Part shown: piece by piece, positions 1 through 59,269 of the stretch
Position numbering within the stretch: the first letter of the stretch is position 1
Layout of the letters: every line of letters begins with the position of its first letter
Source of the DNA: Pezizomycotina sp. ARF18
Taxonomy: Eukaryota; Ascomycota
Direction of reading: 5' to 3'
Assembly: GCA_002224055.1 (NCBI GenBank)
Contig: AZLU01000012.1
Span: forward strand, 326,033 to 390,032
Length of the DNA: 64,000 bases
Made by a program: the position numbers and the translations under genes
Notes under the pieces: generated by a model
What the model was told of the DNA's origin: nothing
The model's database searches: none
The model's input: the letters and a program-made list of their open reading frames with translations, nothing else

Positions 1-49
1 GAAATTAGCGCGGCGGAGACGAATTGCTCCGGCGGTTCCGCTTCCTCGG

Positions 50-1235
50 CTACTTCTTCCAGTTGGGAGAAGCAAGAGTAATACGGCGCCGGAACGGGGA
101 CATTATTCCTCCTTCGAGTCCCTGCCGGATGCGCACGTTCTCTTCGTGCCACGGTAGGCACACGTGCTCGTCGTATACTTCCTGTATACACGTTGACACA
201 CCGTCGGGAGACAAGCTGATCAAATCGCTATCGGTTGTCGATGACCGGTATTGTCTTCCGGAGTGTGGATTCGCAGTCGGCGCAGAGGATGTTTATGGAC
301 GCCCAGGTTCGGCCCCACGTTCTGTCTTCGACGCGGGAGAGGATGACGGTGAGGCGGGAGGAAGGGTAGCGCTGGCTGAGTTGGTATTCTATGTTGCGCT
401 CGTGGTCGAGTTCGGGGAGGAAGAGGAGGTCGGAGTCGGAGGGGTTTGCTTGCGGGATTGTGGGATGGGGAGGGGTAGTGCGAGAGCGGGTGCGGAGAAC
501 TTGAAGGGGAGGGGATGATGATTGTATCGTGGGGAGAGTGGACGGGAGGGACGGAGAGGACTTCTTCTTCGGGCATTGGGGAGAGCGGTGGTAGCGGCGG
601 CATCTATCGAATACAATCGTCAGTACTGAGAGTTTCTTTCGCACGGGGATACATGATTTGCTCACCTCTACTAGTACCTCCGTCTCGACCGTCTCCTCCA
701 CGACAACCCCATTCTCCTCCCTCGATGCCGACGATGCTCGACTAGAGTACCTCACACCCCCCGGCACCCTCAGGCTAACCCTCCTCGACGCCGTAACAGG
801 CGTGTACGCAATAACGCTATTCCGACTGCTCGTCGAATCGAACCTCTTCAGCATGCACTTCGGCACAATCCCCTCTCCCTCCCGCATTACTCCCCGTGCT
901 ACTATTCCTGCTAACGCCCCCACCGTACCCCGCATGGCTACTACACGTACTAGCGTGCCTGACAACGCCGCTCTCCGAGTGTTTTTCCAACTGTATCTGG
1001 TTAAACCTCTCGATGAGGTCCGGGTCGACGTCTTTAGGCCGCGCTGGAGGACACGTTTTAGGTTCTTCGCTTCTTCGCGGAGAGGTCGTTGTCGTCGCGG
1101 CGGAAGGAGTGGCGGTTTGTCCTCGAGGACGCGCCGGAGGACTTTCCGGATCATGTAGAGCTTTTGGGAGTCGGTGTACTTGTGGTACTTTGAGATTCCC
1201 CAGGATGACAGGCGCTTTTTGTACATTTGTTCTCT

Positions 1236-1277
<42 letters not shown>

Positions 1278-4201: not shown

Positions 4202-5957
4202 CTAAAAATAAGTCGGGAAATACGTAATTGGGCCCTGCGGAGAGCTCAGGCTCATCCGAGGCCCCGATAAAATCAGAAGCATCGCGTTTGCTAAATTCTC
4301 GACCGTTTCGCTCGTTTCCCCTTTGTACATGGGGTTCCAAGCCTCAAATGGGGAACCGTCATGATCGTGGACTGGGAACGCTCGGGCAACGGGCGGGTCA
4401 ACCTCTTCGCTCTGGTTCGAATGGTCTCCATCCAATGCGTGACGTTGTTATGAATCTCCTCGTGCGTTTCGAATCCGTATCCCGTTGTTATCAGTCCGTA
4501 GTCCTCTCCGCCTGTCCAATGTTCCTGATCCACCTTGCCCGGATCAGGATCTAGGATTGCGTTCTCGTTGCCTGCGTTTTTCTGGTTATAAGTCGCGGCC
4601 TGCAAAGATTTAGCATGGGAAACCTCTGCAAATTTTTCATCCGCAGCTTTGAACTGGGACCAGCGACAACCGCCAGGTTCCCAGCATTTTTTAACTTCGA
4701 AGTTGAAGTGCGGCAGTGGTGAAGCATGGCCACATGTGAGCCCAGTAGCAGCGACGAAATCTTCCCTTCCGCTCCACTGGCCTGGGTTTCCCAAAAGTCG
4801 GAGGCTCACCCTTCCACGATGATGTTGATTCAGGAGGTGCCTTTGCTCAAAATTTTTCAACACTGCCTGGAACGTGTAGTACGTCGGAGTCGGTATCTTT
4901 GAGCTATCTGAATACCATACGTAATTGCTGAGATATAATATTCTGATCTCAGATATAGCCCGGACAATCCGAACAGGTTACTTCGATCGGAAACTTGACT
5001 TTGGTGACGTCGCATTCGTTAAATCCAAATTGGAAGACATCATCGCGATACTTGTTCGACAAAGCTGTCACAGCATTTGTATATCCCAACGTTCTTCGAG
5101 ATCGATCGGCGTTATCGTTGCTATCTCTGGAATCCGAGTCTCCTCAAGCAAGACTTCATTTTCTGGGATGGTTGGTGTTGGCGGTGCACGCCCCTCTTTA
5201 TTCGCAGCGTGTACGGGTTTTAGCGACTCGGCTGCTACATGAATGTCATTTGTAAACCGTCCCTTCCGATATTGAAGCCAGAGGTACTTGAGGTAAATGT
5301 CGATAGGCCGTTAGAGCTTATGGAACTGCAGGTGGAAATAGCTACACAGCGAAAATATATTAATCAAAGTTGGATATAGTCTAGGGCATTCCGCAGATAA
5401 ATTAGCGGCGAAGACAGGAGCCGCCGTCCTGAAATGAAAGCGCTGAAATGTAACGTAAGCGAATAGACTTACCATCGCGGAATCGATCAATGGCGAATTT
5501 TCTCCCCAGTCCTCTTTTTACTTTTGAAGGCGGATTACTTCTTTCGAATGCTTCCAACGAACGGCCGTTTTCTTTGGAGGATTTTGCGACGACCTCGCGG
5601 CTACTTTTGCTGCTAAATACATCCATTGCCTATTGGTAAGCTTGAGATACTTTTCATTGCCTCCCCAACGGCCTCGCAGACGAGCTTGTAGTTGTTTTTC
5701 GCTGTGAAGAAGATCAATGAATCCACGTTAGCATTTCAGGGAACTACGATATTAGTGCGCCACTCCATACCTTGCCATGAAACCCTCGGCTACCAGCTGT
5801 GCTTTAACGTCTCTTATTTCATGGCTTTTCCAGAGTTCTTCGATGCGTGGCTTCCAATTCTCCCATTCCTTTCGTCTATGGGCTCTTTCAGGTTCCGTCC
5901 TGAGTCTTTGGACGACGGCGGTAAATCGGGGGTGGATGCTGGCATGAATGTCAACAT
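4202..5957 (-). CDS. Clr5-domain protein, copy 2 (group I)
   Basis: First gene of a tandem triplet with copies 3 and 4. The start (Met at 5957) gives a Ser/Pro-rich leader, then the first half of the Clr5 domain (EWENWKPRIEELWKSHEI, ending AEGFMAR). A phase-2 intron runs 5770-5702. Exon 2 has EKQLQARL, WGGNEKYLKLTNRQWM and a basic KKTAVRW stretch. After a second intron comes ISSNGLSTFTSSTSGFNIG (5330-5271), then FQFGFNEC and TCSDCPGY. The C-terminal part has FEQRHLLNQHHRGRV, TGLTCGH and KKCWEPGGCRW (about 4860-4670), followed by an acidic tail; two frames compete for the end (4291 or 4202). At least two frameshifts, one in exon 1 near GACGAAAGGAA and one in exon 2. The Cys/His pattern suggests metal binding (inference). 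Molecular function unknown. Confidence 0.75.
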
Positions 5958-6418
5958 TATGATAATTGAATTAACAGGAATTGATCTTTTTTTTTTTATC
6001 GATATATCGCCTGGAGATTTGTTCGTTTAGTCAGGTGACGATGTAACTGCTTGCACATAGAATATTGTAGGCACGGATGGTCTGTTTTTTGATGATGTTT
6101 TTGGAAGGTGTTTTTTGATGATGTTTTTAGAAGAGTATGATAGCGGGCGGAAAATGCAACACGAAGTCCTAGCCTCGTCTCAAGTTCCAGCCGTTGACCA
6201 AATCCCTTTTGAACAAATTAGGAAATTTTGTTTGATGTCCGTCTTGTGGCGGATTTAGTACTGTAGTACAGAGATTCTAATTCAGTTGTCCTAGTTTATT
6301 AAATAAATAGCTTACGCCCCCAACGGTTCGATTACATCTGGTCTAGGCGCACTACTGATCGCATAATCTGGGAGATTGTAATAACCTGGTTCAAAATCAT
6401 AAGGTCCTCCGTAAATCC

Positions 6419-8090
6419 TTAATTGGAGTTCGGGGAAGAGGCTTTGAAGCAAGTCATCCGCAGCTTTGGATGTAGCCGGAGGTGCTCGTCAGCGACAAGT
6501 TCAGACTTCTCATCAGGGTATAGATCGCCGAGGTGAGCGGCACGGTGGTCGTCAACGCTTCCCGAACCACCATGGATTGGTGCGCAAGAGCCCTTACGGC
6601 CCTGGGTCCACTCTGCCGTCGCCTCGTTGTTATTAGTTTCCCACGACCCTTTCCTTGTTTCAAGAAGATACCCGATCGGTCCTTCAAGTTCGCTCTCCAG
6701 GCCAGCAGTATTGAAGCCGTTACGGTCGAAACCTTCGTAGTCTCCAGCGTATTCTTTTGTTCTTGATTCGTCTTGCCCTGGTAGCCCCGGATTTCTTTGT
6801 CTTCCATATCTTCAGAGAGATTACGAAAAGGTATTTCCCACGAGCAGCCACCAGGTATAAAGCACTCCCAGCCCTTTTCAGAAGGAGCTTGCGGTGATGC
6901 ACCATGCATGTGCTTGCATTGAGGTGCAAAAGCGCCGCTAGCCTGCTGTGCTTCAAAGTACCGCTGAAGCCTTCGCTGCACCCTTCTGCGGTGACCTTCA
7001 TTTAGCAGGTGTCGTCGCTCGAACGACTTGAGGTTTTCTCGCAGAGATTCGCATAAAGCAGATATTCTCGCCAGTGGATCACCACCCGCAAGAGGACGTT
7101 GCGCGATATCGGTGGGGGGTTCCACTCGTAGTCTGGACAATCCGAACATGTAAACGCGTCCCCATATCTTTGTTCGTTGCAGCTAAAACGATCGTATGGG
7201 TACTTCATTTGTAATTCCTGAACAATCGCTGCTGGTGATGGCGGCGACCTTCCAGTCCGGGCCCCAGCGGACGCGGTTTCACCTCCGAGTCAACGGATTT
7301 TGCGTCCGAGATCTCCGAGCCTAGTTCATTCAAGAAACCATGAAGCTCTTCTTTAACTTTGAAGCCGCTTGTGCTAGACGTGTACGTGGATAAGCCATGG
7401 GAGCTTACGGTCCCGCACTCAGATATGACTGGTGAGTGAGTAGGAAAGAAACGTTTGTTAGTAGATGGCGACTCGACGGAGGAGTGCTAATAGTGGTAAC
7501 TGCTTACCATCCAGGAAGTCTTGCCTCGCTAACCTTCTTTCCAAACCTTTCTTCAGCTTTGAAGCCGGAATTATCTCTTTGGTATCTTTCCAACGCACTG
7601 CTGTTTTGCTTTCGGATCCAGCGAGGATCTAGCTGCTATCCTTTGTGCGATGTGCATCCATTGCCTGTCGGTAAGCTTAAGATACTTGGAATTGCCTCCC
7701 CATTCCTCAAGGCGAGTTACAATTTGCTTCGCGCTACGTCATAAAAATCGTTGTTTTAGCTCCAAGAAGTGTCATAAATCGCAGCTATATCGAATGAAGG
7801 GCTTGCAAAACACTTACCTCGCGTGAAAGCCTTCTGCCACCAATGTTTCTTTCACGATCTTCAATTCATGGCCGCGGTATAGTGCTTCGATACGCGGTCT
7901 CCATTTTTTGCCAGTCCTCTGCCGTAAGTTGCTGACCGGGTCCCGTTTTCTTTCTTTTGGATTTCGGCGGCGAATCTACAGAGAAGGCCTCGGCAAATTT
8001 TACCTTCTTAGACGCCGTGACCGGCGGTGGAGCTATACTTGAGAAGGCTTTAGCGAATTTGAACTTTTTGAGATTCTGAGTATACATCAT
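6419..8090 (-). CDS. Clr5-domain protein, copy 3 (group I)
   Basis: Middle gene of the triplet. The N-terminus carries a doubled KFAKAFS / KFAEAFSVDSPP motif; the second unit resembles copy 4. The Clr5 first half (WRPRIEALYRGHELKIVKE, then VAEGFHAR) becomes continuous only if the six-base T run at 7904-7909 is read as five. A phase-2 intron at 7817-7734 follows. Exon 2 has KQIVTRLEEWGGNSKYLKL, DRQWMHIAQ and IIPASKLKKGLERR. The next exon begins near 7415 with VSSHGLSTYTSSTSGFKVK. Further on are FTCSDCPDYEW, FERRHLLNEGHRRRV and FIPGGCSW (about 7200-6840). The tail frame ending at 6419 fits best; another ends at 6454. Upstream lies a strong hairpin (8436-8468). Function unknown, presumably as for copies 2 and 4. 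Confidence 0.75.
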
Positions 8091-9023
8091 CTTGTCTTAT
8101 GATTCTGAGGACCGTTCCTGAATAATTTAGATGCTTTTGATGTATCGACGAATATACTTATTGACCGGAAGTATCCCAGGTTACATACAGGTTGGATGAG
8201 AGAAACCCTGAGGCGAAAGCCTCGTCTTTAATCCATCCTTCCGTCCAAATTCCCTTCGACAAATTAGGAAATTCAGCGGAGAAGGACTTGTATATTTGCG
8301 CCGTTGCGGAGTTGTGGGTCTGTTTAATTAATTGTTCTGTCACTAAAACTCGGAAATTCCCACCATTGATCACTCCCACTGATTATCGACAGGAATTTTC
8401 GACTAATATTCAACTTTTGACGCCGACACAACTCGAATCGCGAATAACTCTACGAGCTATTCGCGATTTTATACTCGCCGACGTTAAAAATTTTATAAAA
8501 TTTTATAAAATTTCCGTTTATAGGGGGTAGTTCGCTAGCGTAAGGGGGTGGGGTATTGCCCTGATTAGGCTAGCAGAGCGTTGCCCGGTAGTGTGGGTAG
8601 CGTTGTTTGTTTACGTTGTATATTATTGTGAGGCGATCGACACGGACCCACACTGATATAATGATTGTCCACTTTCGTCCGCAATATGATGGGATGCCAG
8701 ATGCTGAAACGCAGCAAAGCAATGCGCCTCGATCTTGGAAGCGGTGACCAGAAGTTCGACTGCGCGAACTGCCGCGTTGTTATAGAATTTGATACTAGAT
8801 TCTGATGTTTGTATCGCTAAAGCTCTAAAAACTCTGCAGGGCAAATTAGGAGACTAAATGTTCTGGGATGTACGTTAAGATACGCTTTTGGTATAAACAA
8901 AATTCCTTTCTCCTTTAAAAATTAGAATGTAACCAGATGCATTTCAGTATGACAAGTATTACCTGGCTTATCTCAAAAGTGAAACACCTAACGGGACATT
9001 TTCACCGCGATACTAACATCCCT
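8091..9023. other. Intergenic between Clr5 copies 3 and 4
   Basis: No credible gene. It holds the 5' flank of copy 3 and the 3' flank of copy 4. It contains a hairpin at 8436-8468, and just beyond it, at 8488-8515, an A/T stretch with two direct copies of TTTTATAAAA. Confidence 0.55.
8436..8468. promoter_or_regulatory. Perfect 11-bp inverted repeat upstream of Clr5 copy 3
   Basis: AATCGCGAATA at 8436-8446 is exactly complementary to TATTCGCGATT at 8458-8468. The spacer can also pair (CTC/GAG around TAC), making a nearly continuous hairpin. Each arm contains the palindrome TCGCGA. It lies about 350 bp upstream of the copy 3 start. A protein-binding palindrome or the relic of a small element are both possible; no function is shown. 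Confidence 0.5.
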
Positions 9024-11102
9024 CTACCAGGTTCCCGCATTAAGCCCAGGAAAAAGGCTATATATCACATCGTCAGGTACTTCTCCTAATACATCTCCTG
9101 GAAGCTCTCCAAATACCTCTCCTGATATCCCATCTAATATCTCAACAAGCGCCTCATTAGTATCTCATCTGATGTCCCATCTGTTACCCTTCTAGAGATC
9201 TCAATGGGCAATTCTTCCCGGGCTTGGGCTTTCGTGATGTCGCGGGGCGGAACCCATTTCCCATAAGCTTTAGTATTACCCATATCAGAACAGCTTGGGA
9301 TATCGCGTGGTAGACCATGTGGTGTTCCAGCTACTGCCTCTTCTGGGCCCCCACTGGCAATTTACAGTCTATGCCGATACTTGGGTGCTCGGGATGTCGC
9401 GTGGTGGAACCCATTGCTCATTTGTTTCAATGACATGGGTATCAGAACGGCTTGGGATAGCTGGCAAATCCTGCAAATCCGGGAAATCCGGGAAATCCGG
9501 CAACCTAGATTCTAGTGAAGTCTCCTGTTCAGTGCCGGCCATTCCATGGTTCTGAACCCACATGGCTACGTCTTCGTAGTTGGTTTCCCTGCCACCTCGA
9601 ATTACCCCTGAACTATCTCCATGAGCCTTATAGGATTCGGCTTCAAGAACCACTATATTCTTTCTGAGGCTCTCGCCACTTCGAGGGCCTTCCTTCTCTT
9701 GTCCAATTATCTCTTTTCCATTTCCTTCCCGCGGTATTTCGGGCATTTCTTGGAAGTTGGCTTCTTCGGACAATTGAGACACAAGTTTCTCCCTCTCTTG
9801 ATCCTCTACGGTCTTCAACTGGACCAGCGACAACCACCAGGCGTCCAGCATTTCTCTAATTCGAGGCTAACATCTGGCGGCGGTACGTCGTGTCCGCATG
9901 TGAGGCCTGTATCACGCACAAACTGGTCACGCTTGCTCCATTGACCGGGGTTTCCCAGGATTCTCAATTCCACCCTCCTACAGTGGCGTTCCTCGTTTAA
10001 GTGCCTCTCGAAGATATTGAGGACTTCTTCCAAACTATTGAAATACCGGGAAGGACTTATGATAAGATCGTCCGGTGGCAAACCCATGTTTGGCGTGCGA
10101 TCCCCTCAAAAAGTCTCGTGGGATCTGACGAGCGTCTAAAATTGATAGAAAAATCCGGACAATCCAAGCACAGAAGCTCGTACCCGGACGTCGGACCCAT
10201 TTTCAAATAAAAGCTATCATTTGGGTATCTGGCCTTTAGAGCTCTGACAGCGAAAGGTTGCCAGCGATCTAAAATCCCGATTCTAGGATCTGATGTAGCG
10301 TCGGATGTCCCTTGAAAGTTCATCAGTCTGCTCAGTAGTCGGATCCCATTCTTGATCTTGAAGCCGTTCGTACTAGAGGTGAAAATGGACAAGCCGTGAG
10401 AGCTTATAGACCCGCAGACAGAAAAGGCTATAAAATTATGAATAATGATATATCGATATGCGACCATTAGCGCAAATGTCATGATCAGCGAGAAATACAC
10501 CGACCGGGGAGTAAATACTCGTATCTTCAAAAGCGTCTGCCACGCTATATACTCGTAGGGGCTCCTTACCATCATAAAGTCGCTTTTCGCTAGCCTTCTT
10601 TCTAACCCCTTCCTAATTCTCGAACCCGGGATTATTTCCTTTGAAGCGCTCCAGCGGACTGCCGTTTTCTTCTCTTTATCCTGTGACAGCCTTATCATTG
10701 TCTTTTGTGCTACGTGAATCCACTGGCGGTCCGATAGCTTTAAGTATTTCGCATTACCTCCCCATTCCTCGAGGTGTGTTGCAAGCTGTTTCTCACTATA
10801 CCAATTTCTTATCAGTATATCTGAACACATCTTCTATCTCCTTCTTTTCGGAACTTCAGCGACGTCCTCTATTCCTTCTCAGTTCGTTGGGTCGGTAACA
10901 GAAAGATAAGCTCTTACCTCGCCGCAAAACCTTCCCTTGCTAGCATTTCCTTTACCTCCTTTAACTCGTGTTGACGGTAAAGTTCTTCGATCCGTGTTTT
11001 CCACCTTTTCCAAGTCTTCGGCGGTATAGGTTCCGTTTTGCGCCTCTTAGAGATTGGCGGCGAGTCCGTAGAGAAAGCATCAGCAAATTTCACCTTTCCC
11101 AT
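9024..11102 (-). CDS. Clr5-domain protein, copy 4 (group I)
   Basis: Best preserved of the triplet. Start chosen at 11102 (MGKVKFADAFSTDSPP), matching the leader of copy 3; an upstream in-frame Met exists at 11261. The Clr5 first half (TWKRWKTRIEELYRQHEL, ending REGFAAR) ends at a phase-2 intron at 10917-10796. Exon 2 gives EKQLATHLEEWGGNAKYLKL, DRQWIHVAQK, KKTAVRW and IRKGLERRLAK. After a second intron comes SSHGLSIFTSSTNGFKIK (10410-10351), then ALKARYPNDSFYL, ELLCLDCPDF, FERHLNEERHCRRVE, DTGLTCGHD and LEKCWTPGGCRW. The acidic C-terminal tail has PDFPDFPD repeats, two WVPPRDI repeats and short G-D-V-L-G-E-V-P units, closing at 9024-9026; a stop at 9369 needs one frameshift to pass. The Cys/His core suggests a metal-binding module specific to group I (inference). 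Confidence 0.78.
9234..9464 (-). repeat. Imperfect direct repeat encoding WVPPRDI units
   Basis: Two related segments, about 9234-9305 and 9391-9464, lie 157 bp apart within the tail of Clr5 copy 4. Each encodes, on the minus strand, IPS-x-SD followed by WVPPRDI. Just beyond, at 9465-9495, a 9-bp unit (AAATCCGGG type) repeats and encodes PDFPDFPDLQDLP. This is in-gene repeat expansion of a low-complexity tail. Confidence 0.65.
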
Positions 11103-14100: not shown

Positions 14101-15278
14101 CTTTACCAATGACTCGTTCAAGGAGGCTGTTTCTATGAATCAGAAGATCAATTGATGCCTAAGGGTGACGAGCGAGCATGACCTATTGTGTTTCCTTTAC
14201 GCTATGAGCATCCAGAAATGATGCATAGGTGTCAAGTAAACGTTATTCAGGTACGTCGATACCACAACTCGGCAACAGGTAAACGCAAGCAAAAGACGCA
14301 AAGAAGGCGAACCCACAGGCACATCCGCGCAGGCTGGAAGGATCTTCTGTTTGGGGGGGTGGTATAGGAATAATCCAAAGGAAACGGGGCGCCCACAACA
14401 CACCCACTCTTTCTCAAATCCAAGGGCCCATGACTATGGCTTAATTACGCAATGGCTTGGCGAAAGGTTTTTTTTTTTTCTTCCAACCGTGGCGTCTCGT
14501 ATGTACATAGAGGAGGGAGTTAAAAAAAAAAAAAAAAAAAAAAACACAACTTTTGAGAACCTATACTGCTGAAGATTGCATAGAAGGGTACTCGAGTACT
14601 TCGGGGAAACCCATCGCGAGTGTTCCAAGACGCATTATGACTTCTCGGTCTTGGACGCCTGATTGGCTAAAAACGTCCAGATTATGTCCTCGCCCGTACG
14701 TGCATTAGCCCTACAGGGAAATCAACTAATGTCAACTGACAGGCATCTGCTATCCTTTTATCTCTTGTATCTCTTGCGAATAAGAAATTGGACGAGAAGG
14801 CTGAGGTCACTCATAGGACTAATAATAATCAGTAATAATGTCATTTTAGGTATAGCCCGCGAGTTCCTTTTTTTAAACTGAATTTGGCGGTCATCCCGGT
14901 TTAACATGATTACTGACTTTCGTTTTATCGATCATCGTGAGTAAGGAAGAGGAATTCTGAACTAATTAAAGGGGACGAAATGGCAACCCATCGTACACTG
15001 TTATTCGCCTGGAAGTATTAAAAGAACGGCCCGTTACGACATTGCTCTTCTCGTTTAGCATCGACGGTCGGAAAACCCCACCAGCTATTTTTATTATTAT
15101 TGTTCTCGACTATCTCTACCAAGACTCTCGTATCTGGTCTTTTTTTAAGGAGATTTAAGACCTCTTTAACCGAACTTCTAGAAGAGATCCAAAAACCCGC
15201 CGGTACCTACGTTACATTTAACAATAAACCTTTGCTGACCTCCTTGTTCTGTTTTGTTTTGTTATTACTAAGTTCTGG
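11103..15278. other. 4.2-kb intergenic region, no gene seen
   Basis: Short frames only, none with a recognisable domain or a plausible exon chain. Contains A19 at 13921-13939, A23 at 14522-14544 and a hairpin at 13184-13214. It separates the Clr5 triplet from copy 5. Confidence 0.5.
13184..13214. repeat. Intergenic hairpin, 13 bp with one bulge
   Basis: AGAGG-A-TGATTATT pairs with AATAATCA-CCTCT across a CAAC tetraloop, with one bulged A. There is no U-run and no flanking gene close enough to call it a terminator. Function unknown. Confidence 0.45.
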
Positions 15279-26121: not shown

Positions 26122-27481
26122 TCAGAACTTATCCTCCTCTTCCCATAAGCTATCCATGAGTATATCATGAATACTCAGTGGTGCAACATCCCTCGGCGAA
26201 TCCCTCCTAAGATAAGTACTGCTATTTGGAACGCAGCTACTGGCTAGCAACTCGCATCTTACCAACCGAACGTCCTGCCTACCTTCAGACCCTCTCAAGA
26301 TTGTTGGACCCGACTTCTCCTCGCAGCTTGGGGGGAACATTCTGTTAAACACCTTATACTGGTGTGGCGCAGTGAAAATGTGCTCTTTCTCGAATTTATC
26401 AAGAAGGTAGGACCAAATTGCCAATAAATTGTGATCGGAAGACAAAGGAGTGTTGGGAGTGAGGGAGATGGTGACTTCGTCGTGTTCGAGGCAGTCTTTG
26501 CATTTTAGAAGAAGTAGCTGCCGAGAGGATGGTAATGCTATTATGGAAACGGAGAAACGGTCGCCGTAAGGATGGGTTTCATGGACGTGTTTCTTTAACT
26601 CTTGCGTTATAGAGGAGTATGAACAGGGGTGATGAGGTTGAGAGTACTGAGCTCTACAAAGCGACGGAGAAGAAGATTTTTGGAGATGAGAGCTGGGGGT
26701 CTGAGGTTTACTGGGAGCGAATGCTCGTTGTATGATCGAATCGGCACTAGTTATTATTATGAGTTTGGTCCCATATACGCGTACAACGAGACTTGATGAT
26801 CAAAATGACTCACTATCGTCTATCGTTGTCCTTCAATACAAGCTTTACGCCGGCAGCTTCCGGTGGTGTGAACGGGGATATGCCACAAGGGCTACCGTCA
26901 ACGGCCTTTTCTGGTGACGAAACCCTTACTGTTTCAATTAAGTAATTTGGTCAGTTAACGTTTAACTTCAGAACAAGAAGGGTTCGGAAATAGAGCTAAC
27001 CCTCAAACGCTTCATTATCTAGCGCTCTCTGAAGCGTTCTTTCGACTTTTGAAGAATTGACGACCTGCCCATTCAGTTTGAACGCGGTGTCCTGCTTCCC
27101 CTGACGGAAACGGTTAATAAGCTGCAGGTACATGAACCGCAGTTGTTTAATGCTGTATTTATCGTATTTTGTTATCCCCAATCTCTGAATTTGCGTTTAT
27201 ACTGCGGACACTATCGGAGTGAAGGTCAGTTACTATAGTTCATAACAAAGTAATAAAAAGGGGTGGTTCCTGACCGGAGAGAATTGATGAAAGAAAACGG
27301 GAACCATACCTAGCGACGAACCCTTCCCGCTCCTCCATTATAGAAACAACGCGGGGTAGCTCGTACTCGCTGTATAACGCCACGATCTGCTCGCGATGTT
27401 GCTCCCATTCCTCGCTGGAGTGACGGGGCATTGCCAATGGTTTGTTTGGCGAGTAGTGCCTTCTCCATATAACCGACATGT
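26122..27481 (-). CDS. Clr5-domain protein, copy 6 (group II)
   Basis: Starts near 27479 (MSVIWRRHYSPNKP) or at the Met near 27431 directly before the domain. The Clr5 first half reads SSEEWEQHREQIVALYSEYE and IMEEREGFVAR, and ends at a GTATGG donor at 27309. The second half gives QYKRKFRDWGITKYDKYS, but only if the G4 run (C4 on the plus strand at 27176-27179) is five bases long. It continues FKLNGQVVNSSKVERTLQR and NEAFEG. The exon after the next intron holds SPCGISPFTPPEAAGVKL (26898-26838), the group motif. The C-terminal part has HPYGDRFSVSI, a CxxC knuckle (LKCKDCLEH), WSYLLDKFEKEH and the terminal peptide LSIHDILMDSLWEEEDKF. Divergently oriented to copy 7, about 2 kb away. Function unknown. 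Confidence 0.75.
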
Positions 27482-29468
27482 TTACAATCGTTCCATTCGA
27501 ACAGCGGGCACTTCCTTGAGGGTTCAGTCCAAGATCATAAAAGTTCTGTAATAGATGATACCGATGTCGAAGGCGCAAAAAGAATCGAATTGGGAGTTGA
27601 AATCCGTCGCTGGCCATTAATTATCCCTATAAACCCGCGAGACTCTGGGGGCTGAGCAGCGCCGCGAATTGGGATTACTGTCCCAAAAGTATTTTTGCCG
27701 TATTTGGGTCAATTAGGTTAGTTTAAGCGAGTGATTTTTAACCAAAAGGAGTAAAATTAAGGGAATTGAAAATCTAGAGATATCCTCTGCTCGTAGTTCA
27801 CCTCCATAAACCTCTGGATAGAGAACCAAGAGTATGGAGAACGAAGAGTTGAGTGCAATTATATATAATGATATTAAATGCTCATATTTTTTATAACTTA
27901 TATAGGGTATGGATTGATCTTCCTTCTTTGTTGCTACGATCAAATATCATGGAGCAGCATTTACCGCCAGCTAAATGAAACCACGGCTACAGCCTGCACA
28001 ATAGCCTCAATAGATATCACTTCTAGATATACCCGGATGTAAAATAACGAAATTCAACTATCACTTCTAGACGAGCCCTGTGAAGACTAACAGCATCGCA
28101 AAAAAAAAAAAAAAAAAAAAATTGCCGTATATCGATATATACAGATTATTTTATACTAGATACATCCATATTTTCTACTTTCCGACGCTGCGTACGGCTA
28201 GCTATTTTGCATTGCTCCCATTAGATTCACCGCAGTCTTCGTCAGTTCGATAAACCCCGGCCCATCTTCAGTTAAAACACCTCGTATTTGGAATTTAACC
28301 ACAATTTCTAATAGCTCAAAAAACCTCTATCCACGGTTTCTAATACTCGCAAATTTCTTTCACATGATTCCAAATCTCTATCGTTCCAGATTCTTATCGG
28401 TTGGAGAGTTTCCTAAGAAATCTAGATTCAATCTTTGAGCGACTCTGATGGGTATATCAAATTCTCTCCCAAACCTACAAAGCCTTCTTCCTGGAGATTT
28501 GTCGATCAATTATATGCTATGAAGGCATGCTAGTCGAAAGTATATCTCCCTACTTGGTTTAGCTCTTCAAACTTACACTTGAAGGCTTTGCAGATTGCTT
28601 GCAGAAACACAGGAGGTGTTTGGTGCCTTGCATGATCTTTCGTCCAAACAAACGACGTTCTCGAGAGAGTTTCTCGATTATATTTTCACCGATACGAAGC
28701 AACCTACTAGATTCAGGGGTAGGTATCGTTAGAAGAATCGCAAATATGCAAACAAACGCTCACGAATTTGCGGCGGAGGTGGTCTATCACGGTGCTTTTT
28801 CCAACAATCATAATTCTCCATTGGGTTTAGCCGTTTCAGACTCAGCCCGGCGATTCGGGAGACCCTTTTCGGTGTTGGCCTCTGGCCCAACGATCAGGGA
28901 GACAAATTATTTCGAGAACAGCGCCTCAAACGCTATAGAACAATCCTGAACATTTCCAGATTTAGAAATAAACTTCTGTTGAGATGCAGCAGAAATCTCT
29001 GCAAGTATCCAGTGTTTAAAGAATCGTCAGAACCCAAAATCTTTCCAATACCGCCAGATGTTGCCGCTCAAGGTTCGAGGATCGTTTCGTTCTGCAGGCC
29101 CAGAAGGCTAGTATGCTGAGCAGCAAACAGGAAGGAAAATTTTCGTCAAGTTTTATTTGTGGATCCCCTTTCCACGTCATCTATTGGCTGAAAAAACTCT
29201 TAGCGGTCGCCGGGCTTGGTTTTCCAAAAGAAGCGGGGAATATAATAAGCACGGTATTGCCTCCTTGTCTCCAGAATCTCCATCATCTACTCCACCTTAT
29301 ACTCCCAATCATTATAGCTATATAGTCCACATCATCAGAGGTCCTGGAGCTGGCGATAACAGAGATCCTTGTAGCCCCCGTAACCTGAACCGACCACCTC
29401 CCTTTTTTGCCCTTTTAAACCTCCGACGCTCTCCATCAAAGACCACCCCATCCCCGACACTGCCGGCC
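27482..29468. other. Intergenic between divergent Clr5 copies 6 and 7
   Basis: About 2 kb separating two divergently transcribed group II genes, so it should contain both promoters. A22 lies at 28100-28121. The rest is AT-leaning with short chance frames. Confidence 0.5.
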
Positions 29469-29491
29469 ATGGCATCTCTCTCAACAATATC

Positions 29492-31174
29492 ATGGCAACC
29501 TACTTACGGCGAGCGATCTACGACACCGAGAGCCCGGAAAACCGACAAGAAACGCGAGCTCGAAGATATACCCCCGAACAGCTAGACTGGAGAATTCTTT
29601 CTACCCCCGACGCACCTCCGGCCTCGAAACGCCGGAAAGCTACGTCCAACCATCACAGCAACGAGGAATGGGAGAAGCACAGACAGACTATCGAGGACTT
29701 ATACCAAGTCCACGAGCTACAGGATGTAGCGAACATCATGGCTAATGTTTACAACTTTGATGCTAGGTAATTAGGTCTCTTTGGCATGCAAGGGCTCAGA
29801 CTCAAGCTTACAGAAGATGGTTTCCGCAGTATTCCGCAATACAAGCAAAAGCTGAACAAATGGGGTCTCCAAATACACAAAGTTCTCCGCCAAACAGCTT
29901 CTATACATAGCACAAGAGGTCGTACGGCGGTCTGGACAGGAGAAAGGTCCGGCATTCCGCCTCAACGGCAAGCGATTAAATTCCCGGAATATCGAGAGAG
30001 CACTCAACAGGAACCTGAACGGAAAGGACGGAAAAGACTTTGAGGGTATTTCCCTCTCTTGCCTTTATATTTTCATATAAATTACATGGACCAAGCTAAA
30101 CCTCCTATCTTTAGTTGCATCTTTGGCCTCGGCTATGAGTTCGTGCGCATTATCCGGATACACTTCCAGCACCCGCGGTGTAAAAACATCCTTCCTCACC
30201 CTGATCGGCGAAGAATCGATCAGTTACCCCCAACCTCCGACAAACATCGCCAAATGCCTCGTAAAAATCAACAACCTCAACCACCACCTCAACCGACCCC
30301 CCGGCTCTAAAAAATCCTCCTCCAGAGCACCGAAACTCGATCCTATATTTTCCGACAAAGAGAAAGTTCAAAACTACCTCAACCAAGCACTCGAACTCGT
30401 CCGCAGTGGAGGCGATGGCAGTGTGGACTTCCAGCTCCGCGGCTTATTCATCCCCGAAGAGATCCGCCTTTTGCTGTGTTTTTTTCACCTCATAAACTCC
30501 CACAGACACGGCGAACCGTTCTCCGCTTTCAGGGTGCAGAACTGTTTTAGGAAGCATATCCGGAGAAGATTTTTATCCGAAGGACCCACGCCAGAATGCT
30601 TCGAAGTCCAGTGTGCGTGGTGCGGATATTCTCGCGAGTACAGCGCGGATCCAGAACTCAGCGCCGCAATACAGCACAAGCTTACCCGAGGTACCTGGTC
30701 GGACAGATTTATAAAAGACGTCAAGAAATTTGCGTTCGCGCACGAGGAATTCTACTCCTGGAAGAGCGAGTTCGGGGCGTCTAAGGAGGATTTACCCAAA
30801 TTGGCTAGCTACCTAAGAGAATGGGAGGCGGTAGACGTGGAGCGACGGGCCAGCATGGAGGAGACTGAACTAGCTGCTAACATGGAACGCCTTCCGATAC
30901 GACTGAGACTACTGAAAGCACAGAGACATCAGGCTCCACGGATTCAGACGATCTGGGAGATATCCGGATTATACAGAACGGGAACGACCTTGAGATCGTT
31001 GACTCGACAGGCCAAAATAGGATCTCGCTGAGCGATATTCTCCTATCCGACCTCTGGGAGGAAGATAGTGAAGGACAAACCGAGGGCACTGGCAGTACTC
31101 CGAAGGACGATACCTCGAATGACTCAGGGTCTCCCCGTGAATTGTTGATTTCTTGGATGATGAATGATTTATAG
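29492..31174 (+). CDS. Clr5-domain protein, copy 7 (group II)
   Basis: Start at 29492 (MATYLRRAIYDTES), with an alternative out-of-frame Met at 29469. The Clr5 first half (SNEEWEKHRQTIEDLYQVHE, then ANVYNFDAR) meets a phase-2 intron at 29767-29829. Exon 2 reads PQYKQKLNKWGLQ, then FSAKQLLYIAQEVVRR and FRLNGKRLNSRNIERAL once A3 at 29871-29873 is read as A4. It ends at a GTATTT donor after DFEG. The third exon begins with SSCALSGYTSSTRGVK (30135-30190). The core has LRGLFIPEEIRLLLCFFHL and a CxxC knuckle (VQCAWCGYSREYS). The acidic end reads RISLSDILLSDLWEEDSEG and stops at 31172-31174. One frame change near 30.9 kb separates the core from this tail. Closest relative in the window is copy 8. 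Confidence 0.77.
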
Positions 31175-32858
31175 TAGGATATTATTGATAAATTTAGCGG
31201 GTTTATGTGGTAATTACGATGAAATTCTTGTCGCTTAGATGCCTGACGTTTACGTAGCACAAGTGTAATATTTAATAGTTTTTAATATGTATATTATCGT
31301 GATGTCACTAAATATTGTGCTCAATTTATACTCGATGGTGGCGCCGGAATATAATAGTTGGGTTGAGTGAGGAAAGAGCCGTTCTTTCATAGGATCCATG
31401 AATTTAAAAAAACCCCTCTGAGATCTCTTTCCTTTATGGAGTTTGTGCAGCGACACTCTTTCTATTCAACACGCAAATCTTATCTCTGAGGTTTAATCCT
31501 TCCTTTCGCTCCATACTTTGTGAGTGTTTCAATTATCTGTTTCTTAAAGTCTCGTCGTGTAAGACGAGGGTTATAGCCGTCTCGATGTAGCTTTAGGTGA
31601 AAATCAGCCTCAAGCATTACTACGGCGGAATTCCATGAAGGGGGTTAAACCGCGACTTGTTTGAATGGTCTGGTGGGCTTGTGTTCCACACAATCCATTG
31701 ACATAATCGCGATTATTTGCATTTTGTAGTGATGCTGAAAGCTAGGCTTGTATCTGCTTCGCTCTCAAATGCATAACGTCCTAGGAGGCTTTAGTAAACC
31801 CCTGAATGTTGCCGAGAAAGGGATTGTGTTTATATATGACTCTACAAGACGGTATACTATGCCGATCTCGTGATGATCATTGAATTAGAGTGCGGCGGTT
31901 ATTTCAACTATTTGCTGTGTTCCCATTCTCATTTGGCTTCTGGGAGCGCAGATTGTCGGATTTCTCCCCAACGCGTGGCGTCATGCATAAACGGTGGCAA
32001 TGGGAACAGCCCTGCCTCGAAGACCTTACCGCAGGTAGCGGGGCTTTAGAGCATGAAGCGCATTCACCTACATCGGAAACTTGAAAGGGTAGACTTTTTT
32101 GTCCTATAACAAGATCGGGAAGATGCTCAGAATGGCGAAGGCGAGCGTACCTGTTGTCCATGCACGGCCGTTGTGATTTGTATCCTTCTAAATATAATAA
32201 TGTCTCGCGTTAGTTAGTACCTTCGTTATATATAGGCAAAATTCGGGGCTGTTCGCCTTATATACTAGGGCTTAGATTGTTTCAATTAGCGGGTAATGCG
32301 ATTGACAATGTGTGTGCTTCGCCTTTTGGTATTTAATGTATGTAAAAGTTGGGAATTTGTGTAACAATGGCTTGTGTCCAGTGAATCGTTTCCACCGCCG
32401 AAGAAATGAGTATAAATCCAAGGACATCCCGTTGCCTATAATATATGGAGGAGTACTCACAGTCCCAGGTCACATAGTTTACTCCCTCGCTCTACAGAAA
32501 CTCTAGCCTTCTTGCTCCAGTGCTCGCAAACTCCTTTACTTTCCACTTTAAATTTTATCCCGAATTACTTCTACTCATTCACCTTAAAACTTCTATCCCT
32601 GAGGCCCAGCTACTATTGGCTCTTTATAACCCTTATCTACGATAAATACCCTTAAGATCACCCTGCCATAGAGATTAAAATCTCGACTCGTTGCAAATTA
32701 CTATGCTATATTAACCCCCTTTTGATCCGTTGATCTTCTCCTTAGTGTAGCGCAAGCTGCACCTTCGATCGGCCTCACCCGGAATCCGGAAGGGCGGGTA
32801 ACAATCGTTTGACCAGGCGAATGGATCGACGTCCAGGTCCTGACCCTGACCCGTAGAC
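31175..32858. other. Intergenic, no gene seen
   Basis: Several short frames, none with a domain. A minus-strand frame at 31904-32161 is Cys-rich (CASCSKAP, SHCHRLC) but has no further support. Confidence 0.45.
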
Positions 32859-33395
32859 ATGTTCACTCACCTCGCAGATTCCTCCTTAAAATCGGGTGGC
32901 ACCCCAAGCTCTGGCCACCAAGGTCGGGGGGAATTGCAAGTGTCCGAAGATCGAAAGACGAAACGGGTTTGCCCGGCAGCGGATGAGAAAGATCATCCCG
33001 AACGCGCGCTCGCAGAGATGTGTCGCAGAAAGTGTAGGTGCAGAACGGGTGGAACTAATCGTACAACTCATTTGGTGGAGCAGCGCATCTCCAAGAAATA
33101 ATATCCAATCGCGAACGCTTCTCCGCTATATCCGCTTCTCGGGGCAGACCCTAGCAAGCCTTTAACCGAGGAAGAAGATTGGCGTATAAGGCTCGAGGCT
33201 GATGATAGATGCTCGAAGCTCTGCACCGAGTGCGGTTGGCGAGTACCCCCAGAGAAAAAGAAGGCTGGAACTGGAACCGCTGCTAAAGCCGCGCCGACCG
33301 GCGAGAGAGCCGGCGGCGACGCGGGCCCCAGTAATCTCAGAGGTGGTGATGCTCATGCTGGCGCCGTGGCATGGATAGCCACATGGGATATCTGA
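32859..33395 (+). CDS. Hypothetical protein with CxxC, partial
   Basis: The best-supported part is the end. It reads YPLLGADPSKPLTEEEDWRI, then KLCTECGWRVPPEKKK, followed by an Ala/Gly-rich tail ending AVAWIATWDI with a stop at 33393-33395. Upstream frames (32859-33165) change phase at least once and contain Cys-rich stretches, so the true start is not visible. I do not recognise the family. It abuts an AT-rich block directly downstream. Confidence 0.35.
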
Positions 33396-33419
33396 ATGGG
33401 CTCTTTTCCTTTTGTCCGT

Positions 33420-33960
33420 TTTATCTTTCCTATCGGCATACGATACTGTTATCCTACATAGCCTTTTATATATATATTTACTTTTTAATTTATATTATTT
33501 ATTCTTTTATTTTACTACTATTCTTTCCCTGCTTCTCTTTTCTCTTTTTTTGCTCCGAAATATTATAGCTTTTACATATAGAGTAACTAACTATATATAA
33601 ATAAGTAGCTTCAAGTTAAGTTATCTATAATAATAACGGTTAGCCTTAAACTTGGTACGGTTTCCCGTTAGATATATATTTGAAGCTATAATAATATTTA
33701 TTTTTTTTTTTTTTTAAGTTTATATATGATAATTTTTTAGGCTCATCCATTCATAATACTTTTGATAATTAAATTTTTATTACCTTATATAGTATATAAT
33801 ATTATAAATAACTATAGACTATATAAAATAATTGTTACAGAAATCCACCTCAGTAATATAGTAGCACGAACCGGTATATATTGTAGGGTTGACACCGACT
33901 AAGCGTACTATTCCTAGAGGTCTTATTATATATAGCCCTTTTTGTTTTTTAAAATGAAAA
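33420..33960. repeat. Small AT-rich island
   Basis: A roughly 0.5-kb stretch of A/T-dominated sequence with TATA-type runs and T15 at 33701-33715, in contrast with the moderate GC on either side. It resembles a degraded, mutated repeat remnant. No open frame of note. Confidence 0.55.
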
Positions 33961-34268
33961 TTATCCGAAGAGCAATGATATTAAAAATTGAAATTCTCCC
34001 GGGCCGAATTTCAGGTGAACAAGTAGAATAGCAGGAACGAGAGGTCTATGATTCAGCCAGCTGCATTGCCTTCTCGGCTCAGACTGTATGTATCACTGAC
34101 CGTTATTGAAGGTCTGGCACGTTGTGTAGAATCAAAGTCGGTTTGTCCCTCAGACCCAATCGCATAACTAGGACGAGGTTTTCCACATTGCTTGTCTTTT
34201 CAATTTCGATCATCGCCACTTTCTGACTTATACAGTATATCACTTTAAACATATTATCAATTCGCAAA

Positions 34269-36265
34269 ATGGCCGAGAAAAATTCTCCAACCTTCAATTT
34301 TACAGGATCTAAACCCGTAGCCTCCCTGCAGCCGAAGAGGATAATCATTTGCCGCGATGGCACTTGGCAATCCTCAGTCACTAAAAAGGCCAATATACCT
34401 TCTAATGTTACGCGAATTGCACGTTACTACCGGAAAAGCTCGGAAAAGACAAGGACGGGCGAGATTGGCCTCAAATCGTCTACTATGTACGATGCGGGTA
34501 TTGGGACTGGCGTTCACCCGGCGGAAGCGAAACGACAGGGAGGCACCGGATCTGGGCTTTTGGGGAATGTCATCGGGTATATAATTTCCTCGGGTTGAAC
34601 TACAACCCGGGGGACAAAGTATTCTGTTTTGGATTCTCCCGGGGCGCATACACTGCCAGAGCCGTTGCTGGACTCGTCACGGATATCGGTATTATCAAGC
34701 CGAGAGACATGCAGGATTTCCCCGAGCTGTACAGGGTTTATCAAGCCCACAAAGACTCCCACTCTTTCAGGGCATCTAAACAATGGCGTGAATGGGTGGA
34801 AGGGAAACGCTCGTTCGACCGGGCTCACAAGAATCTCCCTGTGGAGTTGAAGAAGATCATTTGCATGGGAGAAGGTACCCCACGCTGCCGCTCCAGAATC
34901 CAGCAGATAGATCGAAGCCATTGGTGTTTTTGATACAGTTGGCAGTCTGGGCATCCCCGAAATAAGTGGTATAAAAGGATGGTTTGCAGATCGCCTTGGG
35001 GACAAAATAACAATGGAAGACTTTGGGTTCCATAATGTAGCGCTCAGTCCATGTGAGTACCCCTAGCGGCACGCGGAGCTATTACGTATAGCTAAAACCG
35101 ACTGAACAGATATCAAACACGCTTATCATGCAATTGCGTTGGATGAGCATCGCAAGCCATTAGATACCACGCTATGGCATTTGCCAACGGACGCTGTAGC
35201 AGAAATCCCCACGCCCGAAGCTTCAAGCAGCCAACTTAGGAAAAATTAGAAAGCTCTTCAAAAATAAAGCTGATGGTACGGAGTCAGAGCTTTCGACAGC
35301 CTGGAAAAAACTCATTAACGCCTTAATGTATGAAGAACTAAAGGGTCCAAGTCCAACCTCCTCCAGGCTTGGTTTTCGGAGTCCACATCAATATCGGAGG
35401 AGGGCATGAGGGTATTTTCAAAGAGAGGAAAAGCGACTTCGAACGTGAGTGGCCGATGGCAGTCTCTATTTTATGCAGTCCTAATGGAATAAGTTCCACT
35501 ACATTTTTTTTTCTTGGTGATCCAAAGCTGATGATATACAGAGATCGCCATGGTGACTTTTAATTAGATGGTAGAGCAGCTGAGATCGCATCTTTCTTTT
35601 GAGCAGGATGTAACTGAGATATCGGAAAAATGGGATTTGTTTGCAGTTATCTCTCCGTACTCGACGAGCTCAAAAGAAGGGGTTCGAAGATCACTGGCTT
35701 CGCCAGAAGATTAATCGAATTATGGCTCTATGCTCAGCAGGACCGAATATCTGGAGGGTAATAAACCCATGTGGGCAAGGGCCATTATCACAGATATTTG
35801 CAGGTGCTGGGCTACTGGTCCATTGATTGAAAGCCATGAAGGTTGGATGAAGTTAGGAGACGAGCCATACCGTCGACCTGGAGAATACAAGGAGACGAAA
35901 CTCAAGAGCGGCGCCATTGTTAAACTGGGGCTGACAAACGAACAAATTCATCCTACGGTCAAGTTTAAAATGGATCAAGTTGGCGATTACCGGCCTACGC
36001 CCCTCAAAGACTTTAAACGTCAACGAGTGGTCGACAGTAAGACCAAAAAGGTTACCTATGTATAGATCAAGGATGATGTTCGGATCCCGGGATATAAGAT
36101 CAGGGGATGGAAAGTTATGAGCGTTCCTATATGTTTCATGATAACTCAGCCAGGGAGTTCGTCGGTCGCCTGGATAAGGAGTATGGCATTGATTCACGTG
36201 AAGCTCAGGCTTTAGACCTTGGCTTCTTTCAAAAAGAATGGGTTCTAGGAAACAAAAGAACTTGA
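34269..36265 (+). CDS. DUF2235 hydrolase (Tle1-like phospholipase fold)
   Basis: DUF2235 proteins share the alpha/beta-hydrolase core of bacterial type VI phospholipase effectors of the Tle1 group, and are common in filamentous fungi with mostly unknown roles. From Met 34269 the order is the family-typical RIIICRDGTWQSS, NVTRIARYY, YDAGIGTG and GLLGNVIG. Then come YNPGDKVFCFGFSRGAYTAR (nucleophile Ser in GFSRG near 34631-34645), EAIGVFDTVGSLGIP, DFGFHNVALSP, an intron starting GTGAGT at about 35053, and HAYHAIALDEHRKPLDTTLW. The Gly-rich VHINIGGGHEG follows near 35380. The C-terminal part has LIELWLYAQQ, WATGPLIESHEGWMKLGDEP and RRPGEYKETKL, with a stop at 36263-36265. Frame changes lie near 34575, 34880 and 35365. 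No signal peptide is visible. Confidence 0.8.
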
Positions 36266-36754
36266 GGAGAGGGTGCGTTTTTCAAGCCTTTACCACCACT
36301 TGTGTATTTATTACTATCCGAGGCCACTGAGTGGTGCAGATCTTTCTTTCTTTTCCTCTTACTAAGGTCTCCAATCGAAGTTCTATTCTTTCTTGACATG
36401 GATACTTAAGTAATTTAACACTAAATATGACTATCTATTCTACCGTTAAGCTAGGAAACCTACAGGCCCAACGGCCCTACTCGCTAAAGCACTAGTTTTA
36501 CTTCTGTCACTTGTCCTCTAAAGAAAATTCATCCTACTCATGACATCAGAAACTCCCATGCACCTCATTAAATTCGCTAAATACTTCTAGATTGGGGATT
36601 CAACTTTTGGTTTTCAGTCTTGGTGGATTGTAGCGGCACGAGGCTGAATGACTTTATCCCCATCTCGGATTATTGAAAAAGAAGGCAATGTACGTGCTCA
36701 GATTACTTCTCTTATCCTTGTTCTATCAATAAGGAAGTTATAGAGTCTCACTCT
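36266..36754. other. Intergenic between DUF2235 gene and Clr5 copy 8
   Basis: About 0.5 kb with no reading frame of interest. It should contain the promoter of copy 8. Confidence 0.5.
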
Positions 36755-38403
36755 TTGGGTCCATACAGCATGCGAGCGAAACGCAAGGCCCGTTCAGACA
36801 CCAGTCTAGCGTCCAGGAAATCGCGAGCAGGTGCAGGTGGAACCAAGAAAGGAAAGCAGTTGCGGCAGTCTTCGTCTGCGCAATGTGTCGATAATGTTAT
36901 CAGCTGGCAGGAAGTGTCTACGCCCGGCCATCCTCCCATCAGCAGACGGCGGAGGGGAGCAGAGAGTGCTACGTATCACACCGAACAGGAATGGAAGAAC
37001 TTGAGATCTGAAATAGAATCATTATATCTGGAGCACGACTTGGAGGGACTTGCTTCCATCATGGCCGCGAAGTACGGGTTCGAAGCTAGGTAAGCTGTGT
37101 GGCTTTTCCTCCTGTGGACGACGACAACGTAAATACTAACTGAGAATCGATATTTATCAGACCCTCACAATATAAAGCCAAACTGAGTAAATGGGGTGTG
37201 GGAAGTATCTGAAGCTGTCTGTGAAACAGGTTCTTTACATCATCCGAGAAACAATAAGGCGATCGAATTCGAGTCCGGGATCTTGCGCGGCTACAGCTTT
37301 CAGGTTGCACGGGAAAAGATTGAATTCATACAATTTACAACGAATACTAAGGCGCAGAATGGAAGATGAGAACTTCAAAGGTATGCAATTTTACCCGGCT
37401 CGCAAACGTAGATGTCTGTTTTGTTGTGTTTCTCTTTTGATGTCGGGCTCTGAATGATTCGTCTTAGCCTCCTCCCTCGTTTCAGCATTGAGCTCTTGTG
37501 GTCTGTCCGCATACACACCTAGCACGGTCGGTATAAAAATACACGTTACAAGGCGCCAAAAGAGAGCGAACAGAAAGAACGTGACTTTGTTTTACGCATG
37601 GAAGGAAACGATTGCCTCATCAGCGGTAACCCTGGCCGGGGTGATCTTATGTTCGTTAAATATCCGCTTAGAGATGACCACCTGTACATGCTGCCGGGTA
37701 TACTGCTTCCAAGGTTGTTCGATCTATCTTTCAACCTACTATCTACCACCGAATCTTCGGACGCGCCACTGGCTATTCCTCTGTATTCCAGCTGGGGTAG
37801 CGAAAATGAGAGCCTCGTGCGAAAGGTTACGTTTCCCAGTTTAAGGAAAGACATGCTGCCTGACGAGATCAGGTTCATCCTTTACTTTCTGCACTTATCC
37901 TATCCCGATGGAAATGGTCCGAGACGGTTCACTGCAACGTTCGATAGCGCAACGGAATCAGAAGACGAAGGAGCACAGTTTCGCTACACGATCGAATGCT
38001 GCGGGTGCTCTTACACCCACATATACGACTTCTCATCTACGACTTCAGCTACAAACTACTTCAAAGTCTTCAACGAATTCCTAAAAAGTTAAACGATTTC
38101 GCGGATGATTTCTTCTCCGGTCACCAGAACTTCATCGACAATGAGACTATTGTCGATGAGCTCTCAGAACACTATGGTATCGACTTTGGTATCGCTTGGC
38201 AGCGTATCCCATCCGAATTATTGCTACGCACGCGTGTCGGTTCAGACAGCGACTTGTCAGTCAGTGCCGATATTATCGACGATTGGACGGCCGAATTATC
38301 GGTCGTTGATTGCGACCCTAATATTGAACATGGCGAAAGTGATCGGATGTCCCTGAGCGATATCTTCACGTCGGATTTATGGGATGAGGATGACAGACAA
38401 TAG
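36755..38403 (+). CDS. Clr5-domain protein, copy 8 (group II)
   Basis: Start at 36755 (MGPYSMRAKRKARSD) or the Met at 36770, both in a basic Lys/Arg/Ser-rich leader. The Clr5 first half reads EQEWKNLRSEIESLYLEHDL and AAKYGFEAR. A phase-2 intron lies at 37090-37160. Exon 2 is PSQYKAKLSKWG, then CGKYLKLSVKQVLYIIRE and FRLHGKRLNSYNLQRIL, with one base missing in the G4 at 37193-37196. The exon after the next intron begins ALSSCGLSAYTPSTVGIKI (37488-37545). The core has LPDEIRFILYFLHLSYPDG, a CxxC knuckle (IECCGCSYTHIY) and then, after another frame change near 38.08 kb, the end MSLSDIFTSDLWDEDDRQ with a stop at 38401-38403. A23 follows at 38459-38481. Function unknown. Confidence 0.78.
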
Positions 38404-59171: not shown

Positions 59172-59269
59172 CTAGGAACAATCAGAAAAGGTAAAAATCC
59201 ATTCGTGTATTCGCTAAACTTCAGAATGGGTACTACCCGCTCCTTCCCATACCATATTATTTTTTACTA

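Follow-up and report, generated by a model that had tools for sequence, protein, structure and literature searches.

Clr5-type genes of at least two apparent lineages in a dense cluster of Pezizomycotina sp. ARF18

Clr5-Type Genes in the Window

The stretch of DNA analysed here (the window; 64,000 nucleotides) carries eight Clr5-type genes. Positions refer to the whole window; coordinates of profile matches were converted from contig C12. A Clr5 domain followed by a second conserved exon is common to all eight copies, and in each the Clr5 exon comes first among the conserved exons; the true starts are uncertain, given the frame errors described below. Full-length gene models are not reliable because of single-base errors, and those of the gene finder, which fused adjoining genes, served only as a guide. 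The earlier note had distinguished two groups and two divergent copies, and these proved to be usable labels: group A at 4.2, 6.4 and 9.0 kb, group B at 26.1, 29.5 and 36.8 kb, and the divergent copies at 0.05 and 15.3 kb.

The divergent copy D1 is found on the minus strand at 228–1676 (limits of the open frame), with its Clr5 exon at 1440–1553 (PF14420 match at 1440–1541, 32.9 bits) and its second exon at 1089–1235. D2, on the plus strand at 15270–17097 (outer limits approximate), has its Clr5 exon at 15408–15524 (match at 15411–15527, 40.1 bits) and its second exon at 15595–15810.

Group A is a head-to-tail trio at 4.2–11.1 kb on the minus strand, for which all outer limits are approximate. 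A1 (4204–5970) contains a Clr5 exon at 5770–5880, a second exon at 5468–5703 and, from the motif scan, a Cys/His-rich C-terminal region at about 4600–5000. In A2 (6422–8096) the corresponding positions are 7817–7930, 7503–7735 and about 6720–7290; the motif scan detected NLS-like and LSxYTSST motifs. A3 (9027–11264), recognised by its profile match (10920–11021, 25.7 bits) and by motifs, has a Clr5 exon at 10917–11027, a second exon at 10573–10797 and a C-terminal region at about 9818–10410.

Group B comprises B3 on the minus strand and B1 and B2 on the plus strand. B3 (26122–27620; match at 27312–27419, 35.2 bits) has its Clr5 exon at 27309–27419, its second exon at 26999–27207 and a C-terminal exon at 26125–26799, in which the motif scan located CxxC and the tail motif D-I-L..LWEE. 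B1 (29384–31171; match at 29660–29872, 53.1 bits) was delimited also by motifs and open frames; its Clr5 exon is at 29657–29767, its second exon at 29828–30047 and its C-terminal exon begins at about 30115 and carries the tail DILLSDLWEE. B2 (36677–38403; match at 36983–37090, 31.1 bits), delimited in the same manner, has its Clr5 exon at 36980–37090, its second exon at 37162–37382, C-terminal exons extending to 38403, and the tail DIFTSDLWDE.

The presence of Clr5-type genes at eight places, as described earlier, was confirmed, although the profile itself accounts for only part of them: the six matches given above exceeded the curated PF14420 cut-off, whereas A1 reached 16.1 bits (E 0.013) against a cut-off of 22.3 and A2 yielded no Pfam match. 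The second exons of A1 and A2 are 57% and 59–60% identical, respectively, to that of A3 (E 1e-9 to 1e-14), and by this sequence comparison both are clear paralogues despite missing the cut-off.

Elsewhere in the window, a RIP-like AT-rich block is present at 59–64 kb. Between the region at 32.7–33.5 kb and the left flank, DNA matches were short and no shared gene was seen.

Broken Reading Frames

Reading-frame pieces overlapping by one or two bases occurred in nine of 32 copies (A1, A2, B1, B2, B3, C34b, C127, C145, C166), among them five of the eight in the window, and in B1, B2, B3, C145 and C166 the break falls at a run of Trp-Gly codons. Such overlaps would be expected if the copies were decaying pseudogenes with frames broken by single bases. 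This explanation is considered highly improbable, since genes for Cpn60 (at least five of eight loci: C24, C53 twice, C54, C99) and Hsp70 (at least five of seven: C3, C49, C70, C208, C303) likewise shift frame where no intron would fit; the locus at C49:53036–54818, an Hsp70 gene, shows six frame changes with no gap exceeding 31 nt. Furthermore, differences between paralogues in five trios numbered 497, 432 and 934 at codon positions 1, 2 and 3, respectively, a third-position excess that speaks for coding constraint, the pieces having been chosen in conserved frames, which favours such an excess.

The breaks in Clr5 genes are thus attributed to assembly error and not to decay, because the chaperone genes are broken in the same way. 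For this reason, neither programmed frameshifting nor hypermutable G-runs were retained as an explanation of the breaks at the conserved Trp-Gly codons. Homopolymer run-length ratios were even and normal, and therefore the error is not simple compression of runs. It would be a mistake to interpret such breaks in this assembly biologically.

Motifs Outside the Domain and Predicted Structures

Motifs were counted in 41 copies and in 205 shuffled sequences. Upstream of the Clr5 domain, an NLS-like motif was present in 14 copies versus one shuffle, two of the 14 matches (A1 and C138) looking spurious. Downstream, the linker motif LSxYTSST was found in 15 copies (one shuffle), [GM]C[RQS]W in eight (one shuffle) and the D-I-L..LWEE tail in four (no shuffle). 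The sharing of extra motifs, which the earlier note had read as a sign of local expansion, is therefore real and well above chance, but most of the motifs recur on other contigs, and the scan found none of the three downstream ones in 22 of the 41 copies, D1 and D2 included. The acidic tail of B1–B3, three of whose four occurrences are at this locus, is the nearest thing to a locus-specific feature.

Residues of the C-terminal region (CxxC, H and GGC) are conserved in alignments of three and five rows. Any zinc site is putative, since the pattern C-[GK]-H was only weakly above chance (11/41 copies versus 23/205 shuffles). The C-terminal and second-exon pieces scanned gave no Pfam match at the cut-off, and the structural models of these regions were of low confidence (pLDDT 44.5 and 58.6, respectively); Foldseek returned no match below E 5 in the PDB, and a search for a solved structure of a relative found none.

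Density of Clr5 Loci in the Genome

A ninth Clr5 locus is situated 19 kb to the left of the window (C12:307109). Together these nine loci in 56 kb, at one end of the contig, form the largest Clr5 cluster found. When 53 loci were placed uniformly on 46.4 Mb (5000 placements, contig borders being ignored), the maximum was four per 57 kb, and six if gene space was taken as 23 Mb. The density is thus as unusual as had been suggested, far above chance, yet the cluster is not the sole one: 28 of the 53 Clr5-type loci lie no more than 20 kb from another, where chance would give a mean of 2.4–4.5, and further clusters are present on contigs C34, C126, C248, C136 and C9. In this genome the Clr5-type family has many members, often in clusters.

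Loci of a neighbouring methyltransferase family were noticed near Clr5 loci: four of the 27 were no more than 12 kb away (P 0.002 for 46 Mb and 0.02 for 23 Mb), and at 10 kb or less there were three (P 0.01 and 0.07, respectively). These distances were picked after the fact, and a link between the two families was not taken up for that reason.

Phylogeny of the Copies

The earlier note had proposed a single local expansion with a common role, which would be visible as monophyly of the window copies. A recent expansion of this kind from one ancestral gene, the copies sharing a function particular to the locus, would agree with eight copies in recognisable groups within 38 kb and with the concentration of acidic tails at the locus. 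In a tree of 33 rows of roughly 100 residues, eight of them from the window, a single clade of all eight copies was rejected (AU p 1.1e-6), as was one of the six A and B copies (p 1.8e-5); B1–B3 alone were weakly rejected (p 0.028). Not rejected were the clades A1–A3 (p 0.143), B1–B3 with D1 and D2 (p 0.082), and B1–B3 with the left-flank copy (p 0.101). Group A formed a supported branch (95/96) with a copy from contig C23, which in the best tree fell among the A copies; branches enclosing these also contain C29, C93b and C58.

The window label was not clustered on the tree (six changes versus a shuffled mean of 7.2; 80 of 500 shuffles as low), which weakens the case for local duplication, except for the A trio. 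Contig labels taken together were clustered (14 changes versus a mean of 18.2; none of 200 shuffles as low). Some local duplication at the locus is likely, because of the head-to-tail A trio and this clustering of contig labels. A single expansion with one role found no support and is deemed very unlikely, in view of the rejected clades, the position of the C23 copy, the unclustered window label and the occurrence of most motifs on other contigs. Judged from the sequences, the cluster appears to mix at least two older branches of the Clr5 family.

Relation to Known Clr5 Systems

The window copies agree with the Clr5 family PF14420 in the profile matches of six and in the domain and second exon of all eight; they differ in their dense clustering, and some of them may differ in the LSxYTSST linker and Cys/His-rich C-terminus. 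According to passages in two papers which both cite Hansen et al. 2011 (PMC7608984, PMC5003357), Clr5 of fission yeast acts in chromatin silencing and works with histone deacetylases; repression of meiosis genes has also been reported for the Schizosaccharomyces pombe protein. The likeness to this protein is that of a shared domain name. An expansion of Clr5 proteins is already in print: the orthogroup OG0000643 of psychrophilic Dothideomycetes, with 85 members, is listed as expanded (PMC11412873), in a table row which gives no clustering or architecture. Since the cluster mixes at least two older branches of a family that has many members and frequently forms clusters here, the locus counts as a striking case of an already known type of gene, and not as a new system.

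Proposed Nature and Role

The reading considered rather probable is that a fungal Clr5 family, expanded in this lineage, forms several clusters, this locus being the largest, and that its members would be nuclear regulators, probably DNA-binding, whose number rose through tandem duplication. Each gene would probably encode a nuclear protein, with an NLS-like basic stretch ahead of the Clr5 domain in many copies. The second conserved exon is probably helical and probably binds DNA or chromatin; the proteins would serve in the regulation of transcription or in silencing. About half of the copies examined add one or more of the LSxYTSST linker, the Cys/His-rich C-terminus and the acidic, Trp-containing tail of group B, which resembles an activation motif. 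The cluster would have grown through tandem and short-range duplications in two or more older lineages, with later divergence of the copies.

The KRAB zinc-finger genes of mammals form clusters and are engaged in an arms race with transposons. By analogy, the locus could be a fast-turnover cluster of DNA-binding silencers. Many divergent, clustered paralogues, the AT-rich block adjoining the cluster and the connection of Clr5 with silencing in fission yeast (PMC7608984, PMC5003357) would fit such a role, which is nevertheless held to be unlikely; Clr5 loci were not enriched towards contig ends (KS p 0.34, for the 47 of 53 loci with known contig size). In an equally doubtful extension, the Clr5 clusters would have the role that clustered KRAB zinc-finger genes have in mammals: their products would be nuclear DNA-binding regulators in the course of diversifying, equipped with a C-terminal Cys/His module not described before and, in group B, with an acidic tail of activation type, and the repeats or genes recognised would differ from copy to copy.

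Little functional work on Clr5 proteins, a fungal family, was found in a literature search on the domain. A nine-copy locus of apparently at least two lineages, together with the 53 loci listed for a single genome, would provide a handle on DNA-binding targets that may have diversified within this family.

Density of Clr5 loci

The eight Clr5 places reported for 38 kb of the window in the earlier note were recovered. A six-frame search gave 30 exon matches to PF14420 (the Pfam Clr5 domain) genome-wide; six were in the window, all exceeding the family cut-off. The two remaining places (A1 and A2, at 4.2 and 6.4 kb) scored below the cut-off and are plain paralogues of the copy at 9.0–11.1 kb (A3). 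A ninth copy was found at C12:307109, 19 kb to the left of the window, which spans C12:326033–390032. Five pooled searches of the sampled genome (46.4 Mb, 408 contigs) yielded at least 53 Clr5-type loci on 28 contigs, a set which takes in some weak matches, with E values up to 0.008. A neighbouring Clr5 locus within 20 kb was present for 28 of the 53 loci; uniform placement, with contig borders ignored, gave on average 2.4 such loci on 46.4 Mb (maximum 13) and 4.5 on 23 Mb (maximum 20), in 5000 runs each. The densest 57 kb contained nine loci, compared with simulated maxima of 4 and 6. The density is unusual, as had been supposed, but clustering was also observed on contigs C34 (five loci in 48 kb), C126 (three in 4 kb), C248 (three in 8 kb), C136 (three in 16 kb) and C9 (three in 37 kb).

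Phylogenetic relationships

Pieces of the Clr5 exon and/or the second conserved exon were gathered for 41 of the 53 loci. The tree comprised the 33 loci for which 40 or more second-exon residues were available (8 of the 41 were left out); its rows had about 100 residues and its deep branches are weak. A single clade of all eight window copies, as expected from the proposed local expansion, was rejected (AU p 1.1e-6), as was one of the six copies of groups A (A1–A3) and B (B3, B1 and B2, at 26.1, 29.5 and 36.8 kb; p 1.8e-5). Group A as a clade was not rejected (p 0.143), and group B was weakly rejected (p 0.028); B1–B3 together with the divergent copies D1 and D2 (0.05 and 15.3 kb; p 0.082), or with the left-flank copy (p 0.101), were not rejected. 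Group A and the copy on C23 formed a supported branch (95/96), nested in larger ones with C93b, C58 and C29. The left-flank copy was the partner of B1 (94/73), and D2, on a long branch, that of B3 (83/90). Another local trio consisted of C34a, C34b and C34e (99/98); the five C34 copies as one clade were rejected (p 0.0005). Contig labels taken jointly were clustered on the tree (14 changes versus a shuffled mean of 18.2; 0 of 200 shuffles as low); the window label alone was not (6 versus 7.2; 80 of 500 as low).

Motifs outside the domain

Motifs were counted in 41 copies and 205 shuffled controls. An NLS-like basic stretch preceded by two prolines was located directly upstream of the domain in 14 copies versus 1 control, although the matches in A1 and C138 look spurious. 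LSxYTSST occurred shortly past the second exon (15 versus 1), [GM]C[RQS]W close to the C-terminus (8 versus 1) and a D-I-L..LWEE ending in B1, B2, B3 and C34c (4 versus 0); C-[GK]-H was only weakly above chance (11 of 41 copies versus 23 of 205 controls). The extra motifs claimed as common to the window copies exist, but 22 of the 41 copies, including D1 and D2, have neither the tail nor LSxYTSST nor [GM]C[RQS]W, and the tail is found on another contig as well. The group B tail presumably resembles acidic, Trp-containing activation motifs.

The C-terminal region of group A showed conserved C-x-H, H and GGC residues (alignment of three rows). Scanning of C-terminal and second-exon pieces against Pfam gave no match at the cut-off. 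Since a search for a solved relative found none and two structure models were both of low confidence, any fold or zinc site in the Clr5 copies is putative.

Broken reading frames

One- or two-base overlaps between frame pieces of a conserved exon were detected in 9 of 32 copies, among them five of the eight window copies (A1, A2, B1, B2, B3); in B1, B2, B3, C145 and C166 the break occurred at the same Trp-Gly codon pair. A biological origin of these breaks was suspected at first but became unlikely in view of like breaks in housekeeping genes. In match tables, at least five of eight Cpn60 loci (C24, C53 twice, C54, C99) had a frame change lacking an intron-sized gap, and five of seven Hsp70 loci (C3, C49, C70, C208, C303) one without room for an intron; the Hsp70 at C49:53036–54818 contained six, every gap being 31 nt or less. 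Assembly errors are therefore the most likely cause of the Clr5 breaks, and the single-base breaks in Hsp70 and Cpn60 mark an assembly with many small indel errors. Close paralogues differ at 497 first, 432 second and 934 third codon positions, summed over five trios, which indicates coding constraint, with the reservation that the pieces had been selected in conserved frames.

Setting of the window

A methyltransferase gene (PF13489; 23092–24240, minus strand) adjoins B3, and 27 loci of this kind were counted in the genome; a possible association with Clr5 loci is suggestive only. A piece with 65% identity to this gene is present at C34:146066, inside the C34 Clr5 cluster. Open frames on the plus strand matched PF09994 (T6SS Tle1-like catalytic domain; 34409–34930) and the fungal rhodopsin domain PF20684 (40054–40476). 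Short DNA repeats of 77–87% identity are common to the window (32733–33650) and the left flank (L009 5712–7111; L010 1022–1082). The last 5 kb (59000–64000), reaching the contig end, are AT-rich, with 15–26% GC per kb; from 60 kb onward the (CA+TG)/(AC+GT) ratio is 0.03–0.05, an extreme dinucleotide bias of RIP-like pattern. Together with the rhodopsin domain and the Clr5 family, this bias suggests a filamentous ascomycete.

Implications

A role of fission yeast Clr5 in silencing is described in PMC7608984 and PMC5003357, which cite Hansen et al. 2011. Expansion of the family has already been reported: PMC11412873 lists a Clr5 orthogroup of 85 members among those expanded in psychrophilic Dothideomycetes. 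No comparable dense clustering was found in the portions available of the literature on the Clr5 domain and its expansion in fungi, and the literature search found no paper joining Clr5 with Pezizomycotina. The Clr5 family is often clustered in this genome. Tandem duplication would have built the cluster at least partly, in at least two Clr5 lineages, and its products are best read as nuclear, probably DNA-binding regulators.
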